Part shown: piece by piece, positions 2,836-27,170 of the stretch | How the letters are laid out: the number at the start of each line of letters is the position of its first letter | How positions within the stretch are numbered: the stretch's first letter is position 1 | DNA from: Barnesiella sp. An22 | GTDB lineage: Bacteria; Bacteroidota; Bacteroidia; Bacteroidales; Barnesiellaceae | Direction: 5' to 3' | NCBI RefSeq assembly: GCF_002159975.1 | Contig: NZ_NFJR01000001.1 | Coordinates: forward strand, 186,001-250,000 | DNA: 64,000 bases | Translations under genes and position numbers: made by a program | The notes under the pieces: model-generated | What the model saw: only the letters and a program-made list of their open reading frames with translations | Told to the model about the DNA's origin: nothing | Databases searched by the model: none

Positions 2836-3465
2836 CTATTTTTTTACAATCTGTACATAGATGACCTTCTTCGTCTCGAAATACTCCTCTTTGAAGTAGT
2901 CGCTCAGGTTGAAGAGAATCGACGTCTTCTTCACCGGGGCGAGTTCGCTCTGCAAGCCACCACCCTTGAGGCAGAGCAATCCGTTGGGCAACGCGTTCTG
3001 CTGCTCGCGCCGGATGTTCTTTCGAATCAGTTTCAGCAGGTCGGGCAGGGTCATGACGGCCCGGCTCACCACGAAATCATACTCGGTCTTGAGCTCCTCT
3101 ACACTGCCGTGCTGGAAGGTGACGTTTTGCAACCCGATGGCTTCGGCCACACTCTGGGCTACCTTAATTTTCTTGCCCACCCGGTCGATCAGGTGGAAAT
3201 GACACTGGGGAAAGAGAATGGCCAGAGGAATACCCGGGAATCCGCCGCCGGTACCCACGTCGAGTATCGTGGTGCCGTCAGTAAAGTCGATGGCCTTGGC
3301 GATACCCAGCGAGTGGAGTATGTGGTGCAGATAGAGGTTGTCTATATCTTTGCGCGAGATTACGTTAATCTTCGCATTCCAGTCGGTATACAAGGGGCCC
3401 AGAGCCTCGAATTGGCTCTCCTGGGTCGGGGTCAGATTGGGGAAATAGGTTTTGATATATTGCAT
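2836..3465 (-). CDS. rsmG: 16S rRNA (guanine-527-N7)-methyltransferase
   Basis: RsmG methylates G527 of 16S rRNA using S-adenosylmethionine. This 209-residue protein has the family SAM-binding loop ILDVGTGGGFPGIPLAI (about residues 68-84) and the following acidic strand HLIDRVGKK. Length matches the family. It sits between a lipoprotein gene (6-nt gap) and the metallo-hydrolase (5-nt gap), so the three are almost certainly co-transcribed. In this phylum rsmG is often unlinked to gidA/mnmG, as here. Confidence 0.95.
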   Translation of the reverse strand: MQYIKTYFPNLTPTQESQFEALGPLYTDWNAKINVISRKDIDNLYLHHILHSLGIAKAIDFTDGTTILDVGTGGGFPGIPLAILFPQCHFHLIDRVGKKIKVAQSVAEAIGLQNVTFQHGSVEELKTEYDFVVSRAVMTLPDLLKLIRKNIRREQQNALPNGLLCLKGGGLQSELAPVKKTSILFNLSDYFKEEYFETKKVIYVQIVKK

Positions 3466-17014: not shown

Positions 17015-17563
17015 ATGAAAAAGTTTATTTGTACTGTATGCGGTTACGTATACGAAGGTGAAGAAGCTCCTGAATTTTGCCCCCAATGCCACCAACCCCG
17101 TTCGAAGTTCAAAGAACTGGTTGAGTCGGACAAACTCGATTTCGTAACCGAACACCATATTGGCGACGGTGTTGTAGAAGACGCCGAGGTTATGGAAGGT
17201 CTTAAAGCTCACTTCGCTGGCGAATGCACCGAAGTAGGTATGTACTTGGCTATGAGCCGTCAGGCCGATCGTGAAGGCTATCCCGAAATTGCCGAGGCTT
17301 TCAAACGCTACGCTTTCGAAGAGGCTGAACACGCTTCGAAATTTGCCGAATTGCTGGGTGAAGTAGTTTGGAACACCGAGAAGAACGTAAAAGCCCGTAT
17401 GGAGGCTGAAAGCGGTGCTTGCGCCGACAAGATGCGTATCGCCAAACGTGCCAAAGAACTGGGTTACGATGCAATCCACGACACGGTACACGAAATGGCC
17501 AAAGACGAAGCTCGTCACGGCAAAGGCTTCGAAGGTCTGTACAACCGCTATTTCAAGAAATAA
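17015..17563 (+). CDS. Reverse rubrerythrin (rubredoxin domain first), NADH peroxidase type
   Basis: The 182-residue protein has a rubredoxin-like iron site at the N-terminus (C6-x2-C9, C22-x2-C25), followed by a ferritin-like di-iron domain with ExxH motifs FEEAEHA and KDEARHG. This reversed domain order defines the revRbr type, which reduces hydrogen peroxide with electrons from NADH via a reductase. It lies 37 nt after the PerR-like gene, so the two are probably one peroxide-induced transcript. A terminator follows. Confidence 0.92.
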
Positions 17564-17584
17564 AAAATTGCCATTAGTTTACAG

Positions 17585-17622
17585 AGAGAGGGCGGCCCGA
17601 AAGAGTTGCCCTCTCTTTTTTG
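17585..17622 (+). terminator. Terminator after rubrerythrin
   Basis: The 9-bp stem AGAGAGGGC / GCCCTCTCT (17585-17593, 17608-17616) is followed by a run of six or more T. It lies 21 nt past the stop codon. Confidence 0.9.
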
Positions 17623-17659
17623 TCTGCTGTGTCGCAATAAAATACAGACCGACCGGAAT

Positions 17660-17719
17660 GAAAAATATCTGAAACGATGTTTCGATATTTTATTCTCCAC
17701 TCATCTTTTTGTATATTTG
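17660..17719 (+). repeat. Diverged copy of the promoter-bearing repeat, upstream of lepA
   Basis: An imperfect inverted repeat (AATATCTGAAAC, GAT, GTTTCGATATT) is followed by ATTTTATTCTCCACTCATCTTTT and the -7 box TATATTTG (17712-17719). The same block of inverted repeat, ATTCTCC pyrimidine tract and promoter box recurs at 23682-23737. The box is 23 nt upstream of the lepA start and is its likely promoter; no TTG -33 element is seen in this copy. Confidence 0.65.
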
Positions 17720-17742
17720 TCGCAATTATCAGACTAATCTCA

Positions 17743-19530
17743 ATGAAGAATATACGCAACTTTTGTATCATAGCCCATATAGACCATGGTAAAAGTACCT
17801 TGGCCGACCGCTTGTTGGAGTACACCAAAACCATTGCCGAGAAAGACCTGCAAGACCAGGTACTCGACAATATGGATTTGGAGCGCGAACGCGGCATCAC
17901 CATCAAGAGCCATGCCATACAGATGGAGTATCTCTACCAAGGTGAAAAATACATTTTGAACCTGATAGATACTCCAGGGCACGTCGATTTCTCGTACGAG
18001 GTTTCTCGCTCCATCGCCGCCTGCGAAGGAGCTCTACTCATTGTAGATGCTTCGCAAGGCATTCAGGCACAAACGATTTCGAACCTCTATATGGCTATCG
18101 AGCACGATTTGGAGATTATTCCGGTAATCAATAAAATCGACCTGGAGAGCGCCCGTCCCGACGAGGTGGAAGACCAGATTGTCGAGTTGCTGGGTTGCAA
18201 ACGCGAAGAGATTATCCGGGCCAGCGGTAAGACGGGGCAGGGTGTCGAGGAGATTCTCGCCGCCATTATCGAGCGGGTAGAGCCGCCCAAGGGTGACGTA
18301 GATGCCCCGCTGCAGTGTCTTATCTTCGACTCGGTGTTTAACTCGTTCCGCGGAATTATCGCTTACTTCAAGATATGCAACGGCCGTATACGGACCGGCG
18401 ACAAGGTGAAATTCGTAGCTACGGGCAAAGAGTATGAGGCCGACGAAATCGGGGTGCTCAAACTGGACATGGTGCCGCGCAACGAATTGCTGGCCGGCGA
18501 TGTAGGCTATATCATTTCGGGTATCAAAACCTCGCGTGAGGTGAAGGTGGGCGACACCATTACCCACATAGACCGCCCGTGTGCGGCAGCAATCGACGGG
18601 TTCGAAGAGGTGAAGCCCATGGTCTTTGCCGGTGTTTATCCCATCGAGACCGAGGACTTCGAGAACCTGCGCTCGTCACTGGAGAAACTGCAGTTGAACG
18701 ATGCTTCGCTTACGTTCCAGCCCGAGTCGTCGGCTGCGCTGGGCTTCGGATTCCGTTGCGGATTTCTGGGGCTGCTCCACATGGAGATTGTGCAGGAGCG
18801 TCTCGACCGTGAGTTCAATATGGACGTGATTACGACCGTGCCCAACGTATCGTACAAAGTCTATGACAAGAAGGGCGGAATGATCGAGGTTCACAACCCG
18901 TCGGGATTGCCCGACCCAACCTTGATCGACCACATCGAGGAGCCCTACATCCGGGCTTCGGTCATCACGGCTACCGACTACATAGGCCCCATTATGACCC
19001 TCTGCCTGGGCAAACGGGGCGAACTGGTAAAGCAGGAGTACATCTCGGGCAACCGGGTAGAAATCATCTACGACATGCCGCTGGGCGAAATCGTTATCGA
19101 CTTCTACGACAAGCTGAAAAGTATATCGAAGGGGTATGCCTCGTTTGATTACCACATTCACGACTTCAGAGAGTCGAAGCTGGTGAAACTCGATATTCTG
19201 CTCAACGGAGAGTCGGTCGATGCCCTGTCGACCTTGACCCACGTAGACAATGCCGTCACCTTTGGCCGGCGCATGTGCGAGAAGTTGAAGGAGCTCATTC
19301 CGCGTCAGCAGTTCGAGATTGCCATCCAGGCCGCCATCGGTGCCAAGATTATCGCCCGCGAGACCATCAAGCCGGTACGCAAGGATGTAACGGCCAAATG
19401 TTACGGCGGCGATATAAGCCGTAAGCGCAAACTGTTGGAGAAACAGAAAAAAGGAAAGAAACGGATGAAGCAAATCGGTTCGGTCGAGGTGCCTCAAAAG
19501 GCTTTCCTGGCGGTGCTGAAACTCGACTAA
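17743..19530 (+). CDS. lepA: Elongation factor 4 (back-translocating GTPase)
   Basis: LepA is a ribosome-associated translational GTPase. The 595-residue protein starts [20 protein letters not shown], with G1 motif HIDHGKST, switch region [12 protein letters not shown]3 DTPGHVDFS and G4 NKID. The LepA-specific C-terminal domain ends in a Lys-rich tail ([13 protein letters not shown]). The start at 17743 agrees with family length; the open frame extends 22 codons upstream through the promoter box. No strong terminator is seen before nhaA, 80 nt away. Confidence 0.97.
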
Positions 19531-19610
19531 GCGGGGTTATCCCTTTTTTGATTCCGAGGCAGAAAAACTGTAACGAGCTTTTTTTTGTTTAAACTACAAA
19601 AACAACCCAT

Positions 19611-20960
19611 ATGGACAGCTTGTATGCCATAAAGAAATCGATCAAGAACTACGCCAGCGGCGGTAACGTGTTGATCGTAGCTACGCTTTTGGCTTTTATC
19701 ATAGCCAATTCTCCGCTCGCCAATCTCTATTTTTCGTGGTGGGCACAACCCATATCCCTTCAGGTGGGCGGGTTCAACCTCTTCAGTCACGGTGGCGAAC
19801 CGATGACGGTCATGACATTCATTAACGATGCACTCATGGCCATCTTCTTTTTCTCTATCGGCCTCGAAATCAAACGCGAGGTGCTGGTGGGCGAGTTGAC
19901 CTCTCTGAAGCAGGCCCTGCTGCCCATTGTCGCAGCTATCGGCGGTATGGTGGTACCGGTGCTGCTCTTCATGTATGTAGGGCGGGGGAGTGATTTCCTG
20001 CGGGGCAGTGCCATACCGATGGCTACCGATATAGCCTTTTCGCTGGGAGTACTGGCGATGCTGGGCAAGCGGGTACCCATAGCCCTGAAGATATTCCTCA
20101 CTACGCTGGCGGTTGTCGACGACATAGGCGGCATTCTGGTGATTGCCTTCTTCTACTCGACACACATCGAGGTAACCTGTCTGCTCTATGCCGTGGGGGT
20201 ATTCCTGGTGCTATGGATAGGCGGACGGGCCGGCGTAAACAGCAAACTCTTCTACTTTGCATTGGGCGGTGTCGTGTGGTTCCTGTTCCTCAATTCGGGC
20301 ATTCACCCCACCATTGCGGGGGTATTGGTCGCCTTCTGTATTCCGGCCAAGCCGGTGTTGGCAACCTCGCACTTTATCTGCACGATACGCCAGGAGATTG
20401 CCAATTTCCCGCAAGAACAATTCGAAGACAGCGACCGCTCGATTATGCTCTCGAAAGAGCAAATCAACTGCCTGAAGAGCATCGAGTCGGCCTCGGATAA
20501 GGTCATCAGTCCGCTGCAGGATTTGGAAGATACGCTGCACCCCGTCATCAACTATCTTATCATTCCGCTCTTTGCCTTTGCCAATGCCGGCATTGTGCTC
20601 TCGGGTCTCGAGTTCTCCTCGCTCTTCTCGGGTATCAGTCTGGCTGTTTTCGTGGGTCTGTTGGTAGGAAAATTCCTGGGTATCTTCCTCTCGTCGTGGC
20701 TGGTCATCAAACTGAAAATCGTGCCGATGCCCACCCGCACCACCTGGAAGTCACTGGCAGCCGTATCGGTATTGGGTGGTATCGGATTCACCGTGTCGCT
20801 CTTCATCGCCAACCTCTCGTTTGGCGACATGGGGCCCGAAGGAGCTGCACTGCTCGAGCGGGCCAAACTGGGTATTGTAGCCGGTTCGTTGGCGGCAGGA
20901 ATACTGGGATATATTTTCTTGAATATGACATTGCCCCGACAGGTAGAAGAGGAGGATTGA
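19611..20960 (+). CDS. nhaA: Na+/H+ antiporter NhaA
   Basis: NhaA expels Na+ in exchange for H+. The 449-residue inner-membrane protein keeps the ion-binding Asp pair D170-D171 (AVVDDIGG) and the unwound-helix Asp D140 (ATDIAF), and the sensor region FFFSIGLEIKRE. It is longer than E. coli NhaA (388) because of a hydrophilic loop at about residues 255-300. It converges on a permease gene 19 nt away; the short gap has only weak hairpin potential. Confidence 0.96.
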   Translation: MDSLYAIKKSIKNYASGGNVLIVATLLAFIIANSPLANLYFSWWAQPISLQVGGFNLFSHGGEPMTVMTFINDALMAIFFFSIGLEIKREVLVGELTSLKQALLPIVAAIGGMVVPVLLFMYVGRGSDFLRGSAIPMATDIAFSLGVLAMLGKRVPIALKIFLTTLAVVDDIGGILVIAFFYSTHIEVTCLLYAVGVFLVLWIGGRAGVNSKLFYFALGGVVWFLFLNSGIHPTIAGVLVAFCIPAKPVLATSHFICTIRQEIANFPQEQFEDSDRSIMLSKEQINCLKSIESASDKVISPLQDLEDTLHPVINYLIIPLFAFANAGIVLSGLEFSSLFSGISLAVFVGLLVGKFLGIFLSSWLVIKLKIVPMPTRTTWKSLAAVSVLGGIGFTVSLFIANLSFGDMGPEGAALLERAKLGIVAGSLAAGILGYIFLNMTLPRQVEEED

Positions 20961-20979
20961 CCCGACCGGGAAGCCGGGT

Positions 20980-22227
20980 TTACTCAAACTTGATGGACTT
21001 GGCCGGACGAATAAGCGAAACTAAATACGAGGGGGCAATCAGCATCAGCACCGAGATGGCCATACAGCCGATGTTCAGCCAGAGGATGTACCAGAAATTG
21101 AGTTCGATGGGCACATAAGGCACGTAGTAGGCCTCGGGGTTGAGTTTGATAATGTGGAACTGCTGTTGCAGGAAACACAAGGCCAGACCGATGACATTGC
21201 CCCAAATCATACCTTTCCCCACGAGGAAGGTCGAAACATAGAGGAATATCTCGCGTATCGAGGTATTGTTTGCGCCCAGCGCCTTGAGAATACCAATCAT
21301 GTTGGCCCGCTCCAGAATGATAATCAGCAGGCCTGAAATCATGGTAAAGCCCGATACGGCAGCCATGAGAATGAGAATAATCCACACGTTCATGTCCAGC
21401 AGGTCGAGCCACCCGAAAAAGATAGGGTTCAGCGTGCGGATAGATTGCGGGTAGTAGTGGGTGCCGTAATCGTCGGGGCGGTCGATTAACTGCGTATATA
21501 GGTCGTAAGCGATATTGTCAGCCTGGTCGAAGTCGTTGACCAGTAACTCGATTTCGCTATACTGGTCGGGGGGCCAGCCGTTGAGCCGTTGCACCTGGCG
21601 CACATCGCCAATCATCAGCAGTTTATCATAGTCCGAGAAGTCGGTTTGATAGATACCCGACACCAGAAACCGGCGGGCCCGTACCTGATCTTGCACAAAA
21701 TAACAGTAGATTTTATCGCCCACATGCAGGTTCATTTTGTCGGCGATAGTCTTGGAGACAATCACCTCGTTGGAGGTTGCCGAATCGGTTATGAGGGGTA
21801 GATTACCCTCAACCAGATATTTCTTGAAAAACGACCAGTCGTAGTCGGGCATCACCCCTTTCAGGACCACACCCATAAAGTCGCTGTCGGTCTTGATCAT
21901 TCCCAGTTTCGTACCTACGGGCTCGACTTTGGCTACCCCTTCGTGAGCCATCAAAACCTGACGCAGGCTGTCGGTATATTGTACCGGCTGCTTTTCGTAG
22001 GTCGTATTGCTGTCGAACGAGGTTATCTGTATGTGAGAGCCGAAGCCTACCACCTTGTCGCGAATCTCCTGTTTGAAGCCAATGACAATCGCTACCGAGA
22101 GTATCATAACGGCCAAACCCAATGCAACCCCGGCCACGGCTACCCGTATGGCCGGAGGTGTTGCCTTCTTCCGATAGCTTTTGTCGAAATGAATGCGATT
22201 GGCAATATATAGTTTCCAGTTATTCAT
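20980..22227 (-). CDS. LolC/LolE-like ABC transporter permease (FtsX family)
   Basis: The 415-residue protein has one N-terminal membrane helix, a large periplasmic domain (about residues 55-265), then three helices: the MacB/FtsX layout. The start (WKLYIANRIHF) and helix 1 (VAVAGVALGLAVMILSVAI) resemble LolC/LolE, which release lipoproteins from the inner membrane. The ATPase LolD is not nearby. Its start overlaps the upstream aminotransferase stop by 8 nt, so they are translated together. Confidence 0.83.
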   Translation of the reverse strand: MNNWKLYIANRIHFDKSYRKKATPPAIRVAVAGVALGLAVMILSVAIVIGFKQEIRDKVVGFGSHIQITSFDSNTTYEKQPVQYTDSLRQVLMAHEGVAKVEPVGTKLGMIKTDSDFMGVVLKGVMPDYDWSFFKKYLVEGNLPLITDSATSNEVIVSKTIADKMNLHVGDKIYCYFVQDQVRARRFLVSGIYQTDFSDYDKLLMIGDVRQVQRLNGWPPDQYSEIELLVNDFDQADNIAYDLYTQLIDRPDDYGTHYYPQSIRTLNPIFFGWLDLLDMNVWIILILMAAVSGFTMISGLLIIILERANMIGILKALGANNTSIREIFLYVSTFLVGKGMIWGNVIGLALCFLQQQFHIIKLNPEAYYVPYVPIELNFWYILWLNIGCMAISVLMLIAPSYLVSLIRPAKSIKFE

Positions 22228-23428
22228 GTACGGCTACACGACCGGGATAGGCCTCCAATGCCTTTTTCAATACAATCAGGGCTTTGGCCAACTCTTCTTT
22301 TTCCAGTACATAGGCCATACGCACCTCGTTCTTTCCCAACCCGGGGGTAGTGTAGAAGCCCGAGGCCGGAGCCATGAATACCGTCTGGCCTTCATACTCG
22401 AATTCGGAGAGGCACCACTCACAGAACTTGTCGGCATCGTCGACCGGCAACTTGGCCACCGTGTAGAAGGCGCCCATGGGGATGGGAGAGTAGCAGCCTG
22501 GGATGCGGTTCAGACCGTCGATCAGGAACTTGCGACGCTCTACATACTCGTTGTACGTGGCAAGCATATAGCTCTCGGGGGCATCGATCGACGCCTCGGC
22601 AATGAGTTGACCGATAAGCGGTGGGCTGAGTCGTGCCTGACAGAACTTCATCACATTCTTCTTCAACTCCTTGTGACGGGTAATCAAGGCACCGATGCGG
22701 ATACCGCACTCGCTGTACCGCTTCGATACCGAGTCGATAAGCACCACTTGCTCTTCGATACCTTCGAGGTGGAATGCCGAAATGTAGGGAGCTCCGGTGT
22801 AACAGAACTCACGATAGACCTCGTCGGAGAAGAGGAACAAGTCGTATTTCTTCACCAGGTCGCGTATCTGGTTCATCTCTTTTTGCGTATAGAGATAGCC
22901 CGTGGGATTGTTGGGGTTACAAATCAGTATCGCCTTGGTTTTCGGGGTAATGAGGGCTTCGAACTTTTCGACCGAAGGCAGCGCAAACCCTTCGTCGATC
23001 GAGGAGGGCAGAGTCTTGATAACCGCTCCGGCCGAGATGGCAAAGGCCATATAGTTGGCATAGGCCGGTTCGGGTACGATGATTTCGTCGCCCGGGTCGA
23101 GGCAGGCCATGAACGAGAACAATACCGCCTCGGACCCGCCGGTGGTGATGATAATATCGTCGGGGGTTACGTGTATGTTGAACTTGGCATAGTATTGAAC
23201 CAGTTTCTCCCGCAAGCTCTTTATCCCTTCGCTGGGGCTATACTCCAGCGTGCGGCGGTCGATGTGCTTGAGCGCATCCAGACCGATTTGAGGGGTAGGG
23301 AGGTCGGGTTGACCAATGTTCAGGTGGTAAACTTTTATACCTCTTTCTTTCGCCTTATTGGCCAGAGGGACCAGTTTACGTATGGGTGAGGCCGGCATAA
23401 TTTCACCTCGATGGGAAATAGTTGGCAT
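22220..23428 (-). CDS. Class I PLP-dependent aminotransferase
   Basis: The 402-residue fold-type I enzyme has PLP-binding Lys236 (DSVSKRYSECG), the NPNNPTG motif (171-177), SDEVYREF and the later arginine region for the substrate carboxylate. It belongs to the broad AspC/AlaT-like group; the amino donor cannot be assigned. It is the first gene of a two-gene unit with the permease. A TATCTTTG box lies about 50 nt upstream on the same strand. Confidence 0.88.
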   Translation of the reverse strand: MPTISHRGEIMPASPIRKLVPLANKAKERGIKVYHLNIGQPDLPTPQIGLDALKHIDRRTLEYSPSEGIKSLREKLVQYYAKFNIHVTPDDIIITTGGSEAVLFSFMACLDPGDEIIVPEPAYANYMAFAISAGAVIKTLPSSIDEGFALPSVEKFEALITPKTKAILICNPNNPTGYLYTQKEMNQIRDLVKKYDLFLFSDEVYREFCYTGAPYISAFHLEGIEEQVVLIDSVSKRYSECGIRIGALITRHKELKKNVMKFCQARLSPPLIGQLIAEASIDAPESYMLATYNEYVERRKFLIDGLNRIPGCYSPIPMGAFYTVAKLPVDDADKFCEWCLSEFEYEGQTVFMAPASGFYTTPGLGKNEVRMAYVLEKEELAKALIVLKKALEAYPGRVAVHE

Positions 23429-23477
23429 ATCTTCTTCTTTAATGTATAAATAGACTAAACTGAAATTTTTTGAAATG

Positions 23478-23485
23478 CAAAGATA
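23478..23485 (-). promoter_or_regulatory. -7 promoter box (TATCTTTG) for the aminotransferase operon
   Basis: On the minus strand TATCTTTG lies 50 nt before the start codon at 23428. It points away from the repeat cluster that fills the rest of this 420-nt gap. No TTG is at the expected distance. Confidence 0.5.
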
Positions 23486-23610
23486 AAAATTTTACTTTTC
23501 TATCCGTCCATAAAAAAGAGAGAATGTGCATGACAAGGGGTTAAATAGAACAAATATGACCATTTACAGAAAGTTATAGAGGGGCTGTCCCGTATCATCA
23601 GGATAAGAAA

Positions 23611-23820
23611 GCGCCCCTTTCGTTTGTCTCTACGCTCATCTTTCACTATCTTTGTAGAAGATAGGGGGTGATTCGGAATAAAAAATACCGAAACAAGTTT
23701 CGATATTTTATTCTCCGCTCACCTTTCGCTATCTTTGAATAAGATAGGAGTCGGTTCGGCAGAGTCAAAGTTGAAAACTGCGTTTTCCTTTGCCTCTACT
23801 CTCATCTTTCACTATCTTTG
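23611..23820 (+). repeat. Three tandem promoter-bearing repeats
   Basis: Three related blocks of about 75-83 bp end at 23654, 23737 and 23820, each with TATCTTTG preceded by a pyrimidine tract (CTTTCACTATCTTTG or CTTTCGCTATCTTTG). Copies 1 and 3 have a full promoter: TTG at 23624-23626 and 23790-23792, each 20 nt before the box. Copy 2 lacks TTG and instead resembles the lepA copy, with CCGAAAC/GTTTCG inverted repeat at its start. Copies 1 and 2 have a 7-bp inverted repeat CTATCTT/AAGATAG across the -7 box. The last copy is 28 nt from the next gene. Confidence 0.8.
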
Positions 23821-23848
23821 TTACACGAATCTGAATAAAGCGAGTTCT

Positions 23849-24409
23849 ATGGATGAATTGAAACATCTCTTTTTGCTCCTGGTTTTTCCCGAAAAGACCT
23901 GGCAAAAGACAGACAAGGCACCTTGTGCTACACAGCTATTTCTGAATCAGTTTCTTTACCCGCTGATGGGGGTTACGGCTGTGGTCTGTTTTCTGGGATA
24001 TTTCTTCCACGACATTTCGCTGTCGCGGGCTCTGCAACTGGCCATCATCGAATTTGTAAAATTTTTCGGGGGATTCTATGCGCTGGTGTATGTGATGAAA
24101 GTTTTATCGACGCACCTGTTGGAGGTGGTACAGCCCGAGTCGCGAATCAAACGATTCGTAGGGTACAACCTGGGGTTGTACATGTTGTTCGACATCTGCA
24201 TTCTGGTGGTGCGCTACTTCTGCGAAGTACCGGCCATAGTCGATTTTCTGCCGCTGCTGCTGGCGTATGTCATTTGGAACAGTCAAAAATATATGGAAAT
24301 ACCCGAGCAAAAAAGCATCTTGTATGTGGTGACTACCACAGTGTTGTTTCTGGCTATCCCGATGGCCATACAGAAACTGCTCTACTTTTTCATGCCCGGT
24401 GTCATGTAA
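23849..24409 (+). CDS. Yip1-like integral membrane protein of unknown function
   Basis: The 186-residue protein has about five hydrophobic segments from residue 40 on and an N-terminal cytoplasmic part with LFLLLVFPEKTW, a pattern seen in Yip1-domain proteins of Bacteroidota. Its function is unknown. The start at 23849 is chosen because the upstream in-frame ATG at 23735 lies inside the promoter repeats. It precedes smpB by 24 nt and probably shares its transcript. Confidence 0.7.
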   Translation: MDELKHLFLLLVFPEKTWQKTDKAPCATQLFLNQFLYPLMGVTAVVCFLGYFFHDISLSRALQLAIIEFVKFFGGFYALVYVMKVLSTHLLEVVQPESRIKRFVGYNLGLYMLFDICILVVRYFCEVPAIVDFLPLLLAYVIWNSQKYMEIPEQKSILYVVTTTVLFLAIPMAIQKLLYFFMPGVM

Positions 24410-24433
24410 CCATTAAAAGATGAAGATTAAACG

Positions 24434-24886
24434 ATGAAACTACCACAAATAAATATTCGCAACAAACGGGCCTCTTTCGACTACGAGTTGCTCGATACGT
24501 TCAATGCCGGCATCGTATTGTCGGGGACCGAAATCAAATCGATCAGGCTGGGCAAAGCGGGGTTGAACGACTCTTTCTGCTACGTCAACAACGGCGAGGT
24601 ATGGATTAAGAACATGTATATCGCCGAATATTTCTACGGCTCGTACAACAACCATTCGTCGCGCCGCGACCGCAAGTTGCTGCTCAACCGCAAGGAGATT
24701 GCGAAAATCGAACGGGCCTCGCGCGAGTCGGGTTTCTCCATCATTCCCACCCGGGTCTTCATCAACGACAAGGGGCTGGCCAAGGTGACCATAGCCATAG
24801 CCAAAGGGAAGAAAGAGTACGACAAGCGTGACTCGATTAAAGAGCGGGAAGACAAGCGGCAGATGGACCGCATGTTCAAGCATTGA
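24434..24886 (+). CDS. smpB: SsrA-binding protein
   Basis: SmpB delivers tmRNA to stalled ribosomes for trans-translation. The 150-residue protein has the beta-barrel motif [16 protein letters not shown], the conserved [14 protein letters not shown], and the basic C-terminal tail ([14 protein letters not shown]) that fills the decoding site. The 3' end overlaps the convergent methyltransferase gene by 11 nt. The tmRNA gene itself was not found in the window. Confidence 0.97.
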
Positions 24887-26078
24887 TAGCTTTACGGGTA
24901 ATAATCAACACCTTTCGATTGTCGGCAAGTGTGGTGGCAAAGAGATAAAATTCGCTGCCGTCTTTGCACTTGAGTCGTTTTTGCAACTCGTTTGCCGTGA
25001 GCGGAAAGTTTCGCGTCGAGAGGTTGATGCGGGGATATTGTTTCCCAACCGTCTTCAAACTCTTGGCGTTGAAATCGATGACTTCGACCACCTCGAATTT
25101 CCGTCCCGGAAAATCGGGCAGGTAACAATCCGATGTATATAGATGGCTGTTTATTTGCACCTTGTCGACTCCATACGCAGCCGCTACCGATTTATAGGCC
25201 CCCGCTTTGAGAATAGACGAGTTGGGCTCGTACAGGTATCGGGCCACTGTATCGCAAGGGGCAGAGTGGGGAAGTTGCCTCTCTTCATCGAGACGGAAAG
25301 TGAACGTAGATTCCCGACCCGCAGCATCCATATCGACACAGTGAATCGTCGTGGCCATCTCTTGGGTTGAAGTATCTGAGTTTATGACCAGAAGCAGCTC
25401 CTTGCACTCGTTTCGTACCGATACGACATGTACCTCGCCGACCTCGGGCAAAAGCGTCAGAATAGCCGAAATATCAGCCATAGGCGAAACCTTCACGACA
25501 ATACGTCGGCCATGGCGCAACAGTTGGGGCATCAGTGCCACCACATTAGGCTCGCATTCGTCGAGGGCAAAAATCCGTTTGTTGCCGCTTCCCCTCCGGG
25601 CTGGATCGATATAGAGCGTATCGAAACAGCGGTTACAATACTGTATGAAGTGGGTACTGTCATCCTCGACCACCGTGATGTTGTCGGCCCCCAGCCATTT
25701 GAAGTTGGAGCGGGCAGCCTGGCAATATTCGGCCATGCGCTCCACGTAAACGACCTGCGTGGCCTTTTGCGCCAGGTAACAGGTATCTATGCCCAAGCCT
25801 CCGGTCAGGTCGGCCAAATCGCCCGATTGGATGAGTCGTTGCTTATACCGGGCCGTCTGTTCGGAAGAGCATTGCTCGGTCGAGAGGAGTGAGGGAAATA
25901 CCAGATTCGGGTTAGCTGCCCAGTCCGGCAATTTGTGGCGAATTTTTTTGCGGGCCTCGATTTGCAGAATGGCCCACGCCACATCGAAGTCGGCCTGTAT
26001 ATTCATCAGCCGCAACCGATTGGTATCGGCATCGGCATATTCGGAGATGAAATCTTGGATGGTTCGCTGGTATTTCAT
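24876..26078 (-). CDS. Class I SAM-dependent methyltransferase with THUMP-like domain
   Basis: The 400-residue protein has a Rossmann SAM site ([17 protein letters not shown]) with an acidic partner ([11 protein letters not shown]), then [11 protein letters not shown], a motif near the catalytic site of RNA base methyltransferases. The C-terminal third resembles the THUMP-like fold, so RNA is a likely substrate. The start at 26078 ([10 protein letters not shown]) matches the family; the open frame runs 28 codons further up. A TATCTTTG box ends only 4 nt before this ATG. Confidence 0.78.
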
Positions 26079-26082
26079 GGAG

Positions 26083-26090
26083 CAAAGATA
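26083..26090 (-). promoter_or_regulatory. -7 box (TATCTTTG) immediately before the methyltransferase start
   Basis: On the minus strand the box is followed by CTCC and then ATG. Transcription would begin at or within the start codon, giving a leaderless mRNA, unless the box is a chance match or translation starts further downstream. Confidence 0.45.
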
Positions 26091-26148
26091 GAAAAAACTC
26101 CTGCAAGTTTGGCTTTTTTGTTTCCACCTTTCCATATCCATATAGACG

Positions 26149-26302
26149 CTCGGCAAAGTCAAATGTCGAAAACTGTGCTTTCCATTTGTCTCTGCTCTCG
26201 CCTTTCACTATCTTTCCAGAAGAAAGGAGGCGGCTCGGCAGAGTCAAATGTCGAAAACTGTGCTTTCCATTTGTCTCTGCTCTCGCCTTTCACTATCTTT
26301 GC
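26149..26302 (+). repeat. Two near-identical tandem promoter-bearing repeats upstream of pyrK
   Basis: Units 26149-26217 and 26234-26302 are identical over 69 bp except for two bases, and repeat with an 85-bp period. Each starts CTCGGCA, passes through GTCAAATGTCGAAAACTG and ends CTTTCACTATCTTT. The second copy has a perfect promoter, TTG (26271-26273), 20 nt, TATCTTTG (26294-26301). In the first copy the box is TATCTTTC, losing the last consensus G, so it may be inactive. They share most of the sequence of the third copy at 23754-23820. Confidence 0.88.
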
Positions 26303-26330
26303 AAAGAAATGCAAAACAAGGTTGCGGATG

Positions 26331-26354
26331 CTTGCCGGCATGGTGTCAGGCAAG
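26331..26354 (+). promoter_or_regulatory. Leader hairpin between the repeat promoter and pyrK
   Basis: A 6-bp stem, CTTGCC / GGCAAG, lies in the roughly 85-nt leader 37-60 nt before the pyrK start. It has no U-tract, so it is not a terminator; a role in mRNA stability or translation is possible but unproven. Confidence 0.3.
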
Positions 26355-26390
26355 AGTCTCACCACCGGATTTTGCCAGTAAAACAGATTT

Positions 26391-27170
26391 ATGAAAAAAT
26401 ACATTCTCGATTTTCGAATAGCCGAAAATGTACAGTTGCATGACAACTATGCACTCTTGAAATTGACACCTGCCAACGGGCAACCGTTGCCCCCCATGCT
26501 GCCGGGGCAGTTTGTCGAGGTGCGGGTCGATCGCTCTCCCGCCACCTTTTTGAGGCGTCCTATCTCCATCAATTTTGTCGATTATGACCGCAACGAGTTG
26601 TGGTTGCTCATCCGTAAAGCCGGTGAGGGAACCCGTACCCTGTGTGCTCTGCCGGCCGGCGAAACCTTGAACCTGGTTCTGCCGCTGGGTAATACCTTTA
26701 CACCCCCCGAGAACCCGAACGAGAAGATTCTGCTCGTAGGTGGCGGTGTGGGTATAGCTCCTATGCTCTACTGGGGTAAATACCTGAAGGAAAAGGGTTA
26801 TACGCCCCGGTTCCTGCTGGGTTTCCGCAGCGACAAAGACCTGCTGCAATACGAGCAGTTCAAGCAGTGGGGCGAAGTTTATCTATCGACCGAAGACGGT
26901 TCACTGGGTGAAAAAGGTTTCGTAACCCAGCACTCGGTGCTTGAGCAACCGTTCGACCGGCTCTATGTGTGTGGCCCCAAGCCCATGATGGTAGCCGTGG
27001 CCCGGTATGCCCGTGAGCGGAATATCTTTTGCGAGGTATCGCTCGAGAATACGATGGCATGCGGCGTGGGTGCCTGCCTCTGCTGTGTAGAAGACACGGT
27101 CGAAGGCCATGTGTGTGTATGTAAAGAAGGTCCTATCTTTAATATAGAAAAACTCAAATGGCAGATTTAA
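26391..27170 (+). CDS. pyrK: Dihydroorotate dehydrogenase electron-transfer subunit
   Basis: PyrK passes electrons from PyrD to NAD+. The 259-residue flavoprotein has the FAD motif RRPISI (55-60), NAD-binding GGGVGIAPM (117-125) and a [2Fe-2S] Cys cluster (C224, C229, C232, C244 or neighbours). It overlaps pyrD by 13 nt, which couples translation of the two subunits of the type 1B enzyme. The promoter appears to be the second tandem repeat copy. Confidence 0.95.

Follow-up and report, generated by a model that had tools for sequence, protein, structure and literature searches.

Correia elements of Neisseria are described in PMC2649163 and PMC10969869 as non-coding inverted repeats, present in about 120–250 copies, many of them 5′ of genes, which carry promoter parts at their ends and for which no mobilising mechanism has been determined. 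According to the same accounts, they often insert at TA, with two cases at CA, and some of the insertions complete a −10 element (PMC2649163, PMC10969869). BrickBuilt, a MITE of Porphyromonas gingivalis, is presented in PMC4596501 as an intergenic element with tandem repeats and promoter activity and is likened there to a putative mobile promoter; its repeats are 23 nt long and lie within a MITE-like element, of which 19 copies were examined (PMC4596501). According to PMC6006769, cleavage of REP sequences requires a short guide located 5′ to the foot of the hairpin, and in IS200/IS605 elements the cleavage position is set by interactions of a guide in the same location with the target (PMC6006769). 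BIMEs, as outlined in PMC2817692, hold REPs in alternating orientation. The sigma-ABfr consensus given in PMC7366714 consists of TTTG near −33 and TAnnTTTG at −7.

Tandem Array at 23.6 kb and the Repeat Family

The window, that is, the whole 64-kb stretch of DNA analysed, corresponds to C1:186001–250000 of G000, a genome of 3.35 Mb in 56 contigs. An earlier note on this DNA had described a tandem array of three promoter-bearing repeats, and this array is real: three head-to-tail copies begin at 23607, 23690, and 23773, with a period of 83 bp (83 and 83), and each of them ends in TATCTTTG, the boxes beginning at 23647, 23730, and 23813. Over 49 nt, the identity to copy 1 is 61% for the middle copy and 84% for the third one. 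The complete promoter that had been claimed for copies 1 and 3 was found in both as TTTG-N20-TATCTTTG, while direct reading of copy 2 (CGAAAC/GTTTCG subtype) revealed no TTTG. The description of the array as three blocks holds for the three 3′ ends with their boxes, but only two of the units are complete, copy 1 having no recognisable 5′ arm. Copy 3 is matched by the covariance model R1, described below, at G000:C1:209741–209819 (E 3.8e-20). The gene-proximal box of a second array lies 89 nt from the ATG at 26391 of an oxidoreductase-type gene (26.4 kb). The features are listed in Table 1.

Table 1. Hairpin units and adjacent genes in the window, numbered from its first nucleotide.
Feature	Position	Strand	Remarks
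Copy 1, 3′ part of unit	23590..23654, start approximate	+	5′ arm not recognisable; TTTG 20 nt upstream of TATCTTTG 23647–23654
Copy 2, complete unit, CGAAAC/GTTTCG middle hairpin	23658..23737	+	Hexamer AAGATA 23658–23663, box TATCTTTG 23730–23737
Copy 3, complete unit, GTCAAAG/CTTTGCC middle hairpin	23741..23820	+	Hexamer AAGATA 23741–23746; gene-proximal TATCTTTG 23813–23820, TTTG-N20
Native 5′ untranslated stretch, 28 nt	23821..23848	+	Reaches ATG 23849
Gene downstream of array, 186 aa	23849..24409	+	No Pfam match
smpB	24434..24886	+	Pfam PF01668, E 7.6e-57
Single unit before lepA, middle type as in copy 2	17641..17719	+	Hexamer AATACA, box TATATTTG 17712–17719
Array 2, unit 1, 5′ end incomplete	26146..26216, start approximate	+	Internal box TATCTTTC 26209–26216
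Array 2, unit 2	26220..26301	+	Hexamer AAGAAA 26220–26225; gene-proximal TATCTTTG 26294–26301

The 3′ end pattern CTCHYCTTTCNCTATCTTTG, with at most two mismatches, gave 106 matches (44 + 62) in G000 versus 2 (1 + 1) for the reversed pattern, and the 5′ end pattern gave 88 (33 + 55) versus 1 (0 + 1) for the control; the repeats therefore constitute a family rather than chance matches. The further copies for which the earlier note had proposed a search were thus found both by pattern (106 matches) and by the covariance model R1, built from 59 units, which matched 125 times in G000 among the at most 150 candidates scored. In total, 228 units were parsed, 107 of them from the fetched stretches of G000.

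The units are non-coding and typically 68–81 bp long, with the typical order AAGATAGGATGCGGYTCGGCA – middle palindrome – CTYRCCTTTCRC – TATCTTTG; their ends are AAGATAGG and CTATCTT, and the target is TATNTTTG. Between these common ends, at least six kinds of middle palindromes were distinguished by eye, and the CGAAAC and GTCAAA sequences, earlier interpreted as two interleaved subtypes, are only two of them. The whole unit is itself a palindrome and is seated in native −7 boxes, two points which the earlier note did not contain.

Adjacent tandem units are separated by linkers of 3 nt at 110 of 160 junctions (range 2 to 12 nt), the commonest being CAG, GAT, TAG, TTACACG, CAT, and AAT. Unlike units are stacked in the 23.6-kb array (one truncated, one of the CGAAAC type, and one of the GTCAAA type), like units are repeated in L038 and L069, and a pair of unlike units is repeated in L060. 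Arrays seem to have grown in two ways, by the stacking of unlike units and by the duplication of like ones. The longest array fetched, L036 (G000:C1:386658–387078, minus strand), contains six 3′ ends and three middle types, as sorted by eye, and is a natural record of successive insertions. The unit at L059 (G000:C34, about 73.05 kb) is symmetric and has a promoter end that can be read on both strands, perhaps a divergent promoter pair provided by a single hairpin.

A longer copy in which these ends enclose a gene was not seen in G000. The search for an autonomous copy covered the 5′ ends of G000 without a nearby 3′ end, of which nine new and three known stretches were opened (C6:2148 was left out); these 5′-only stretches turned out to be mostly decayed units after a native-type box, and one of them, L168, looks like a chance match. 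In L164, L165, L166, and L167 of G000, 3′-decayed units are located just downstream of a native-type box, and the hairpin would there become part of the 5′ leader of the transcript.

Probable Insertion Sites in Filled and Apparently Empty Relatives

Comparison with relatives was carried out for 27 loci, 10 with G001 and 17 more through the orthologs of the respective genes in G001, G003, G004, and G008 (L063 in G004 only), the classification of a site as empty being a matter of judgement. At 13 of them, one genome was judged to be filled and another to be empty; L054, L074, and L075 were kept outside the 13 owing to unclear remnants or starts. At six of these 13 informative loci (23.6 kb/L090, C1:49 kb, C1:52.8 kb, L046, L071, and L057 in G004), both borders lie at the native −7 box, and a box stands on each side of the insert, the right one being either a copied target or borne by the element. 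The 30-nt left flanks at these six loci showed an identity of 0.63–0.87, compared to 0.30–0.47 for shuffled sequences, and L048 is a weaker seventh case with both borders (0.63–0.67 versus 0.52–0.54). At six further loci (L037, L041, L067, lepA, C1:20 kb, and C1:55 kb), only the right border was readable, and it lies at the box; alignment of the left border failed there. The left flank could not be aligned to empty relatives for L037/G003 (0.50 and 0.17) and L057/G000 (0.47, 0.10, and 0.03), and a loose scan revealed a possible 3′ end in the “empty” relative at L067, L048, lepA, and C1:55 kb. The relatives are distant, with 67–77% nucleotide identity over the 23.8–26 kb stretch, and insertions of recent date are therefore not represented.

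The gene at 23.8 kb was followed through six named records, five of Barnesiella and one of an uncultured Bacteroidales, which, as their coordinates show, are the genomes G004 (L089), G008 (L090), G003 (L091), G002 (L092), G005 (L093), and G007 (L094). Only a TATCTTTG or TATATTTG box is present in L091–L094 and in G001, while L090 has one unit, in the order native upstream sequence – TATCTTTG – unit – TATCTTTG – native leader, and L089 has two, the upper of which lacks a clear 5′ end. The distance from the last box to the ATG is 26–29 nt in eight genomes (the six named relatives, G001, and G000), whether units are present or not. A unit could not be recognised at the lepA ortholog of G001, where a TATATTTG box is present.

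At 11 of the 13 loci, the gene-proximal box shares its fourth base with one or more of the empty relatives, the exceptions being L037 (TATCTTTG in the relatives and TATATTTG in G000) and L067 (TATTTTTG in G001 and G008 and TATCTTTG in G000). The rarer TATTTTTG is found at L046 and L071 both as the native and as the right-hand box; at L046, the right box is decayed in G001 and G008. Judged by the distance to the next ATG, the small, multicopy units are largely intergenic: 50 of the 65 gene-proximal boxes in G000 are within 100 nt of a same-strand ATG of a frame of at least 60 codons (median 37 nt, a count without a random control), and 26 of the 65 lie under some frame of at least 150 codons on either strand. 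The suggestion that such a promoter could spread between genes is supported by the recurrence of units at dozens of genes and by their entry into promoters that are empty in relatives.

In our opinion, the units are likely to be non-autonomous mobile hairpins that target −7 boxes and rebuild the promoter. The hairpin would enter the −7 box (TAnnTTTG) of a sigma-ABfr promoter, co-oriented with the gene, after which the native box would be left of the insert with the hairpin next to it, and the right end, ...CTYRCCTTTCRC-TATNTTTG, would place a similar box at the position of the native one, in most cases along with a TTTG of its own 19–20 nt upstream. Since the right end would re-place the box at the native position, the gene would retain its promoter at the former start distance, the −33 and upstream region being new. 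Every insertion would add a box, making head-to-tail stacking possible, and part of the arrays would have grown by tandem duplication. Units are found in front of lepA, recR, obg, the genes of a Holliday junction resolvase, a Y-family polymerase, a methionyl-type tRNA synthetase, and many more; if the box is indeed both entered and restored, this would explain how a parasite is tolerated before lepA, recR, obg, and other such genes, and many promoters of the genus would have a mobile origin. The units would also be potential tools for promoter replacement in gut Bacteroidales.

Hairpin Structure and the 5′ Hexamer

The unit is a full-length imperfect hairpin, whose 26 pairs extend from base 1 to the penultimate base. 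Its pairing was analysed in the alignment A1, comprising 59 non-redundant units (of the 228 parsed) from at least four families (f1, f22, f61, and f89), which were 79–81 nt long, started with AA, and had no middle of the CGAAAC/GTTTCG type; near copies were removed. Paired cells made up 90.4% in A1 and 85.0% in shuffled alignments, and 19 pairs were changed on both sides, compared to 8.0 upon shuffling. In a tally that counts sequences rather than events, 76 cells were changed on both sides versus a mean of 20.7 in shuffled alignments, none of the 500 shuffles reaching as high a value, and slid registers gave 9–28. For example, columns 15/71 alternate between CG and UA, and columns 3/83 between GC, UA, and AU. 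A strand-symmetric score averaged 58.5 for 120 non-redundant units versus 37.2 (s.d. 6.3) for shuffles of 60. Helix 1 is formed by the paired ends of the unit, and its 3′ arm is the box, which is also the target.

No preference for one strand of the hairpin is claimed, because two indicators disagree: with RNA parameters, the top strand had the higher stability in only 26 of 140 units, and with DNA parameters in 16 of 140, while in a strand-symmetric count its G.T mismatches outnumbered A.C ones by 170 to 94 in 120 non-redundant units (141 to 106 in 60 shuffled ones).

The 5′ hexamer of complete units (AAGATA, AAGACA, AAGAAA, AAAATA, AATACA, AATATA, and the like) is for the most part complementary to TATNTT. 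In 89 gene-proximal units, remaining after 9 of 98 were dropped because their hexamer did not start with AA, the combinations of hexamer base 3 and box base 4 were GC in 57 cases, TA in 16, AT in 3, and others in 13 (four of them G.T), that is, covarying and paired in 76 of 89, while the margins alone would give a proportion of about 0.55. For 88 of these 89 units, a contingency test returned p of about 3e-18, a value to be taken with caution since related copies are not independent. Hexamer base 5 and box base 2 form a Watson–Crick pair in only 117 of the 228 units and 36 of the 59 aligned ones, with C opposite A in most misfits, and a subfamily with 9-nt linkers has mostly AAAATA at TATCTTTG or TACCTTTG boxes, which is a mismatch. 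We infer from this complementarity that the hexamer may help to choose or cut the target.

Boxes on either side of the insert could also be produced by an ordinary MITE mobilised in trans by a DDE transposase, the box being an 8-bp target duplication, and the size, copy number, and absence of coding capacity are MITE-like. However, the inverted repeats formed by the ends of the unit inside the duplicated box are, as read, only weak, the box itself belongs to the pairing arms as a part of helix 1, and a random 8-bp duplication would leave the covariation between the hexamer and the target unexplained. We consider this origin unlikely.

The hexamer is also able to pair with the box on its left, and in long-linker families the end of the linker lengthens this arm, in 46 of 64 pairs versus 30.6 with shuffled linkers, as in the extended junction TATCTTTG-TTACA-CGAAGATA. 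Junctions consisting of inverted arms around a short loop, such as this one, together with the tandem arrays and the repeated pair of unlike units in L060, would fit cassette-like site-specific recombination, in which the junction of box, loop, and hexamer is the core site of a recombinase and circles excised from arrays integrate at half-site promoters. Such a process would have to operate on a target that is merely a half site and with linkers varying from 2 to 12 nt, and it has, in our estimate, about the same small chance of being correct as a MITE. Insertion of a hairpin into the −7 box and restoration of the latter by its right end is the reading we prefer.

Distribution among Genomes

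Besides G000, R1 found 37–111 matches in each of the 8 other genomes of the genus, and the family is therefore carried by 9 of the 9 genomes of the genus examined; it found 14–83 matches in 10 genomes of seven other families, which had been picked as carriers of the 3′ pattern (at most 150 candidates being scored per genome in both sets). Overall, R1 matched 14–125 times in 19 of 19 chosen carriers and not at all in 9 of 9 chosen non-carriers. A shorter 3′ pattern matched in 61 of 393 genomes of the order Bacteroidales, with at most 2 matches for the reversed control; counts of 10 or more were confined to f1 (Barnesiella) and to certain members of f22, f29, f69, f75, f89, f106, and f109. The families f61 and f107 reach 7 and 4 matches, respectively, and the f61 unit L189 is alignable with the units of other families. 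Among 247 genomes sampled across the phylum, of which only three belong to this order, G000 alone had more than one match.

The distribution is patchy even within genera: G076 has 39 matches and three congeners (G180, G272, and G338) have none, G342 has 35 versus none in its congener G276, and G096 and G197 have 26 and 25 versus none in G284. A 46-kb plasmid of Phocaeicola massiliensis (OY726013.1) carries one intact unit (L284:3007–3101), flanked by TATCTTTG at 3007–3014 and 3094–3101, with HTH_17 and AAA/Toprim-type genes nearby, and is a possible vehicle of horizontal spread. Three IMG/VR stretches match the 3′ pattern, and no unit was found in the contexts displayed for them. Three records of “phages” also match, and the two that were opened, L285 (MT836672.1) and L286 (MT835991.1), deposited as “Bacteriophage sp.”, carry units together with genes reading as ordinary chromosomal ones, in one case with the gene order of the 49–57 kb stretch of G000. 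In view of this chromosomal gene content, they are probably mislabelled chromosome contigs, and viral spread on their basis was rejected.

The patchiness is difficult to reconcile with an immobile promoter module of a regulon, duplicated or recombined and kept by selection for a palindrome bound by a regulator. The mostly promoter-proximal, gene-co-oriented location of the copies, the core appearance of many downstream genes, and a dyad symmetry suitable for a dimeric regulator would agree with such a module. Nevertheless, congeners range from 39 copies to none, an insertion with two boxes was found at 6 of the 13 informative loci, the at least six middle sequences sorted by eye have the ends alone in common, and the identified downstream genes share no function; a regulon is accordingly improbable.

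Promoter Features and the Box in Use

The ends of the units match sigma-ABfr-type promoter sequence. TTTG at N19–20 is present in 94 of 146 gene-proximal units, while in 41 of 146, TTTG and TTG are both absent from N19–21. The internal boxes of G000 keep the core TATCTTT in 35 of 42 cases, but the final G of TTTG is present in only 17 of 42 of them, compared to 59 of the 65 gene-proximal ones (Fisher p 3e-8) and 29 of the 49 leftmost left-hand boxes. In G036, the core is intact in 1 of 11 internal versus 11 of 14 gene-proximal boxes (p 0.001). Since the internal boxes lose promoter features that the gene-proximal ones keep, an array probably offers one working promoter rather than a stack. We infer from this base conservation that the gene-proximal boxes would fire and the upstream ones would be mostly silent; tuning of expression by promoter copy number, as the earlier note had envisaged, seems less likely on the same grounds.

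That the element acts instead as a 5′-leader RNA (a hairpin terminator, attenuator, or insulator) and is not a part of the promoter, as 3′-decayed units right after a native-type box might suggest (L164, L165, and L167, as well as G001 and G008 at L046), is even less probable than a regulon, since the gene-proximal box is well kept at most loci of G000 (the 59 of 65 with a final G), placing the hairpin upstream of the probable start site, and an Rfam scan of 17500–26500 of the window matched no family, the best hit having an E of 0.61.

Search for a Mobilising Enzyme

The Y1 transposase profile PF01797 had no match in G000. Within the genus, it was above the cut-off in one of 9 genomes (G006), and four others had weak hits below the cut-off; no unit was found in the 3.3-kb locus around the match in G006. 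Outside the genus, PF01797 was absent from 8 of the 10 carriers and present in G212 and G342; none was found in 6 non-carriers. On the basis of this gene content, mobilisation by Y1/RAYT enzymes was rejected as the general mechanism at present. A lone Y1_Tnp-like frame in G006, L125 (C1:236191–236526), retains NHVH and has RRHIEEQ where its relatives have a YIENQ-type sequence; judged from these residues, its catalytic tyrosine may have been lost.

A more far-reaching proposal, which we put forward only tentatively and consider rather doubtful as a whole, is that the units represent a new class of mobile DNA targeting promoters. The hairpin would pick its own type of box (TATCTTTG, TATATTTG, or TATTTTTG subfamilies) by means of complementary sequence, insert, and return a complete promoter, accumulating harmlessly at housekeeping genes, while being moved by some enzyme and partly carried between species by plasmids.

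Comparison with Known Systems

A published description of the Barnesiella hairpin element was not found in the open-licence literature, with preprints outside the scope of the search. As far as this literature shows, the family is undescribed; in kind it is a mobile promoter whose target and architecture are not known from any named family.

Being high-copy extragenic hairpins, the units resemble REPs and BIMEs, and the box-complementary bases beside the hairpin foot recall the pairing between guide and target outlined for IS200/IS605 elements and REPs in the account cited. Unlike in REP/RAYT systems, G000 and 8 of the 10 carriers outside the genus lack a Y1 gene, and instead of a GTAG-type guide tetranucleotide, the box-complementary part of the units is formed by six bases varying with the box. 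In contrast to the alternating orientation outlined for BIMEs, the Barnesiella units are arranged head-to-tail. They differ from IS200/IS605 elements in that G000 has neither a TnpA-encoding copy nor a Y1 gene, a unit consists of one hairpin, and the insert is boxed on both sides.

In taxonomy, BrickBuilt is the nearest system. The comparison with it is one of descriptions rather than sequences, and the account of BrickBuilt in PMC4596501, in the parts available, describes no promoter box as a target.

In kind, the nearest are Correia elements, which, as described, are likewise small non-coding inverted-repeat elements with ends able to supply promoter parts. In the available parts of the cited descriptions, neither they nor BrickBuilt are reported to enter and restore an existing promoter box. 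The Barnesiella unit differs from Correia elements as there described in its target, TATNTTTG instead of TA, and in its ends, which are not the Correia terminal repeats; it enters an existing −7 box, has a box on both sides, stacks in tandem, and carries box-complementary hexamers.
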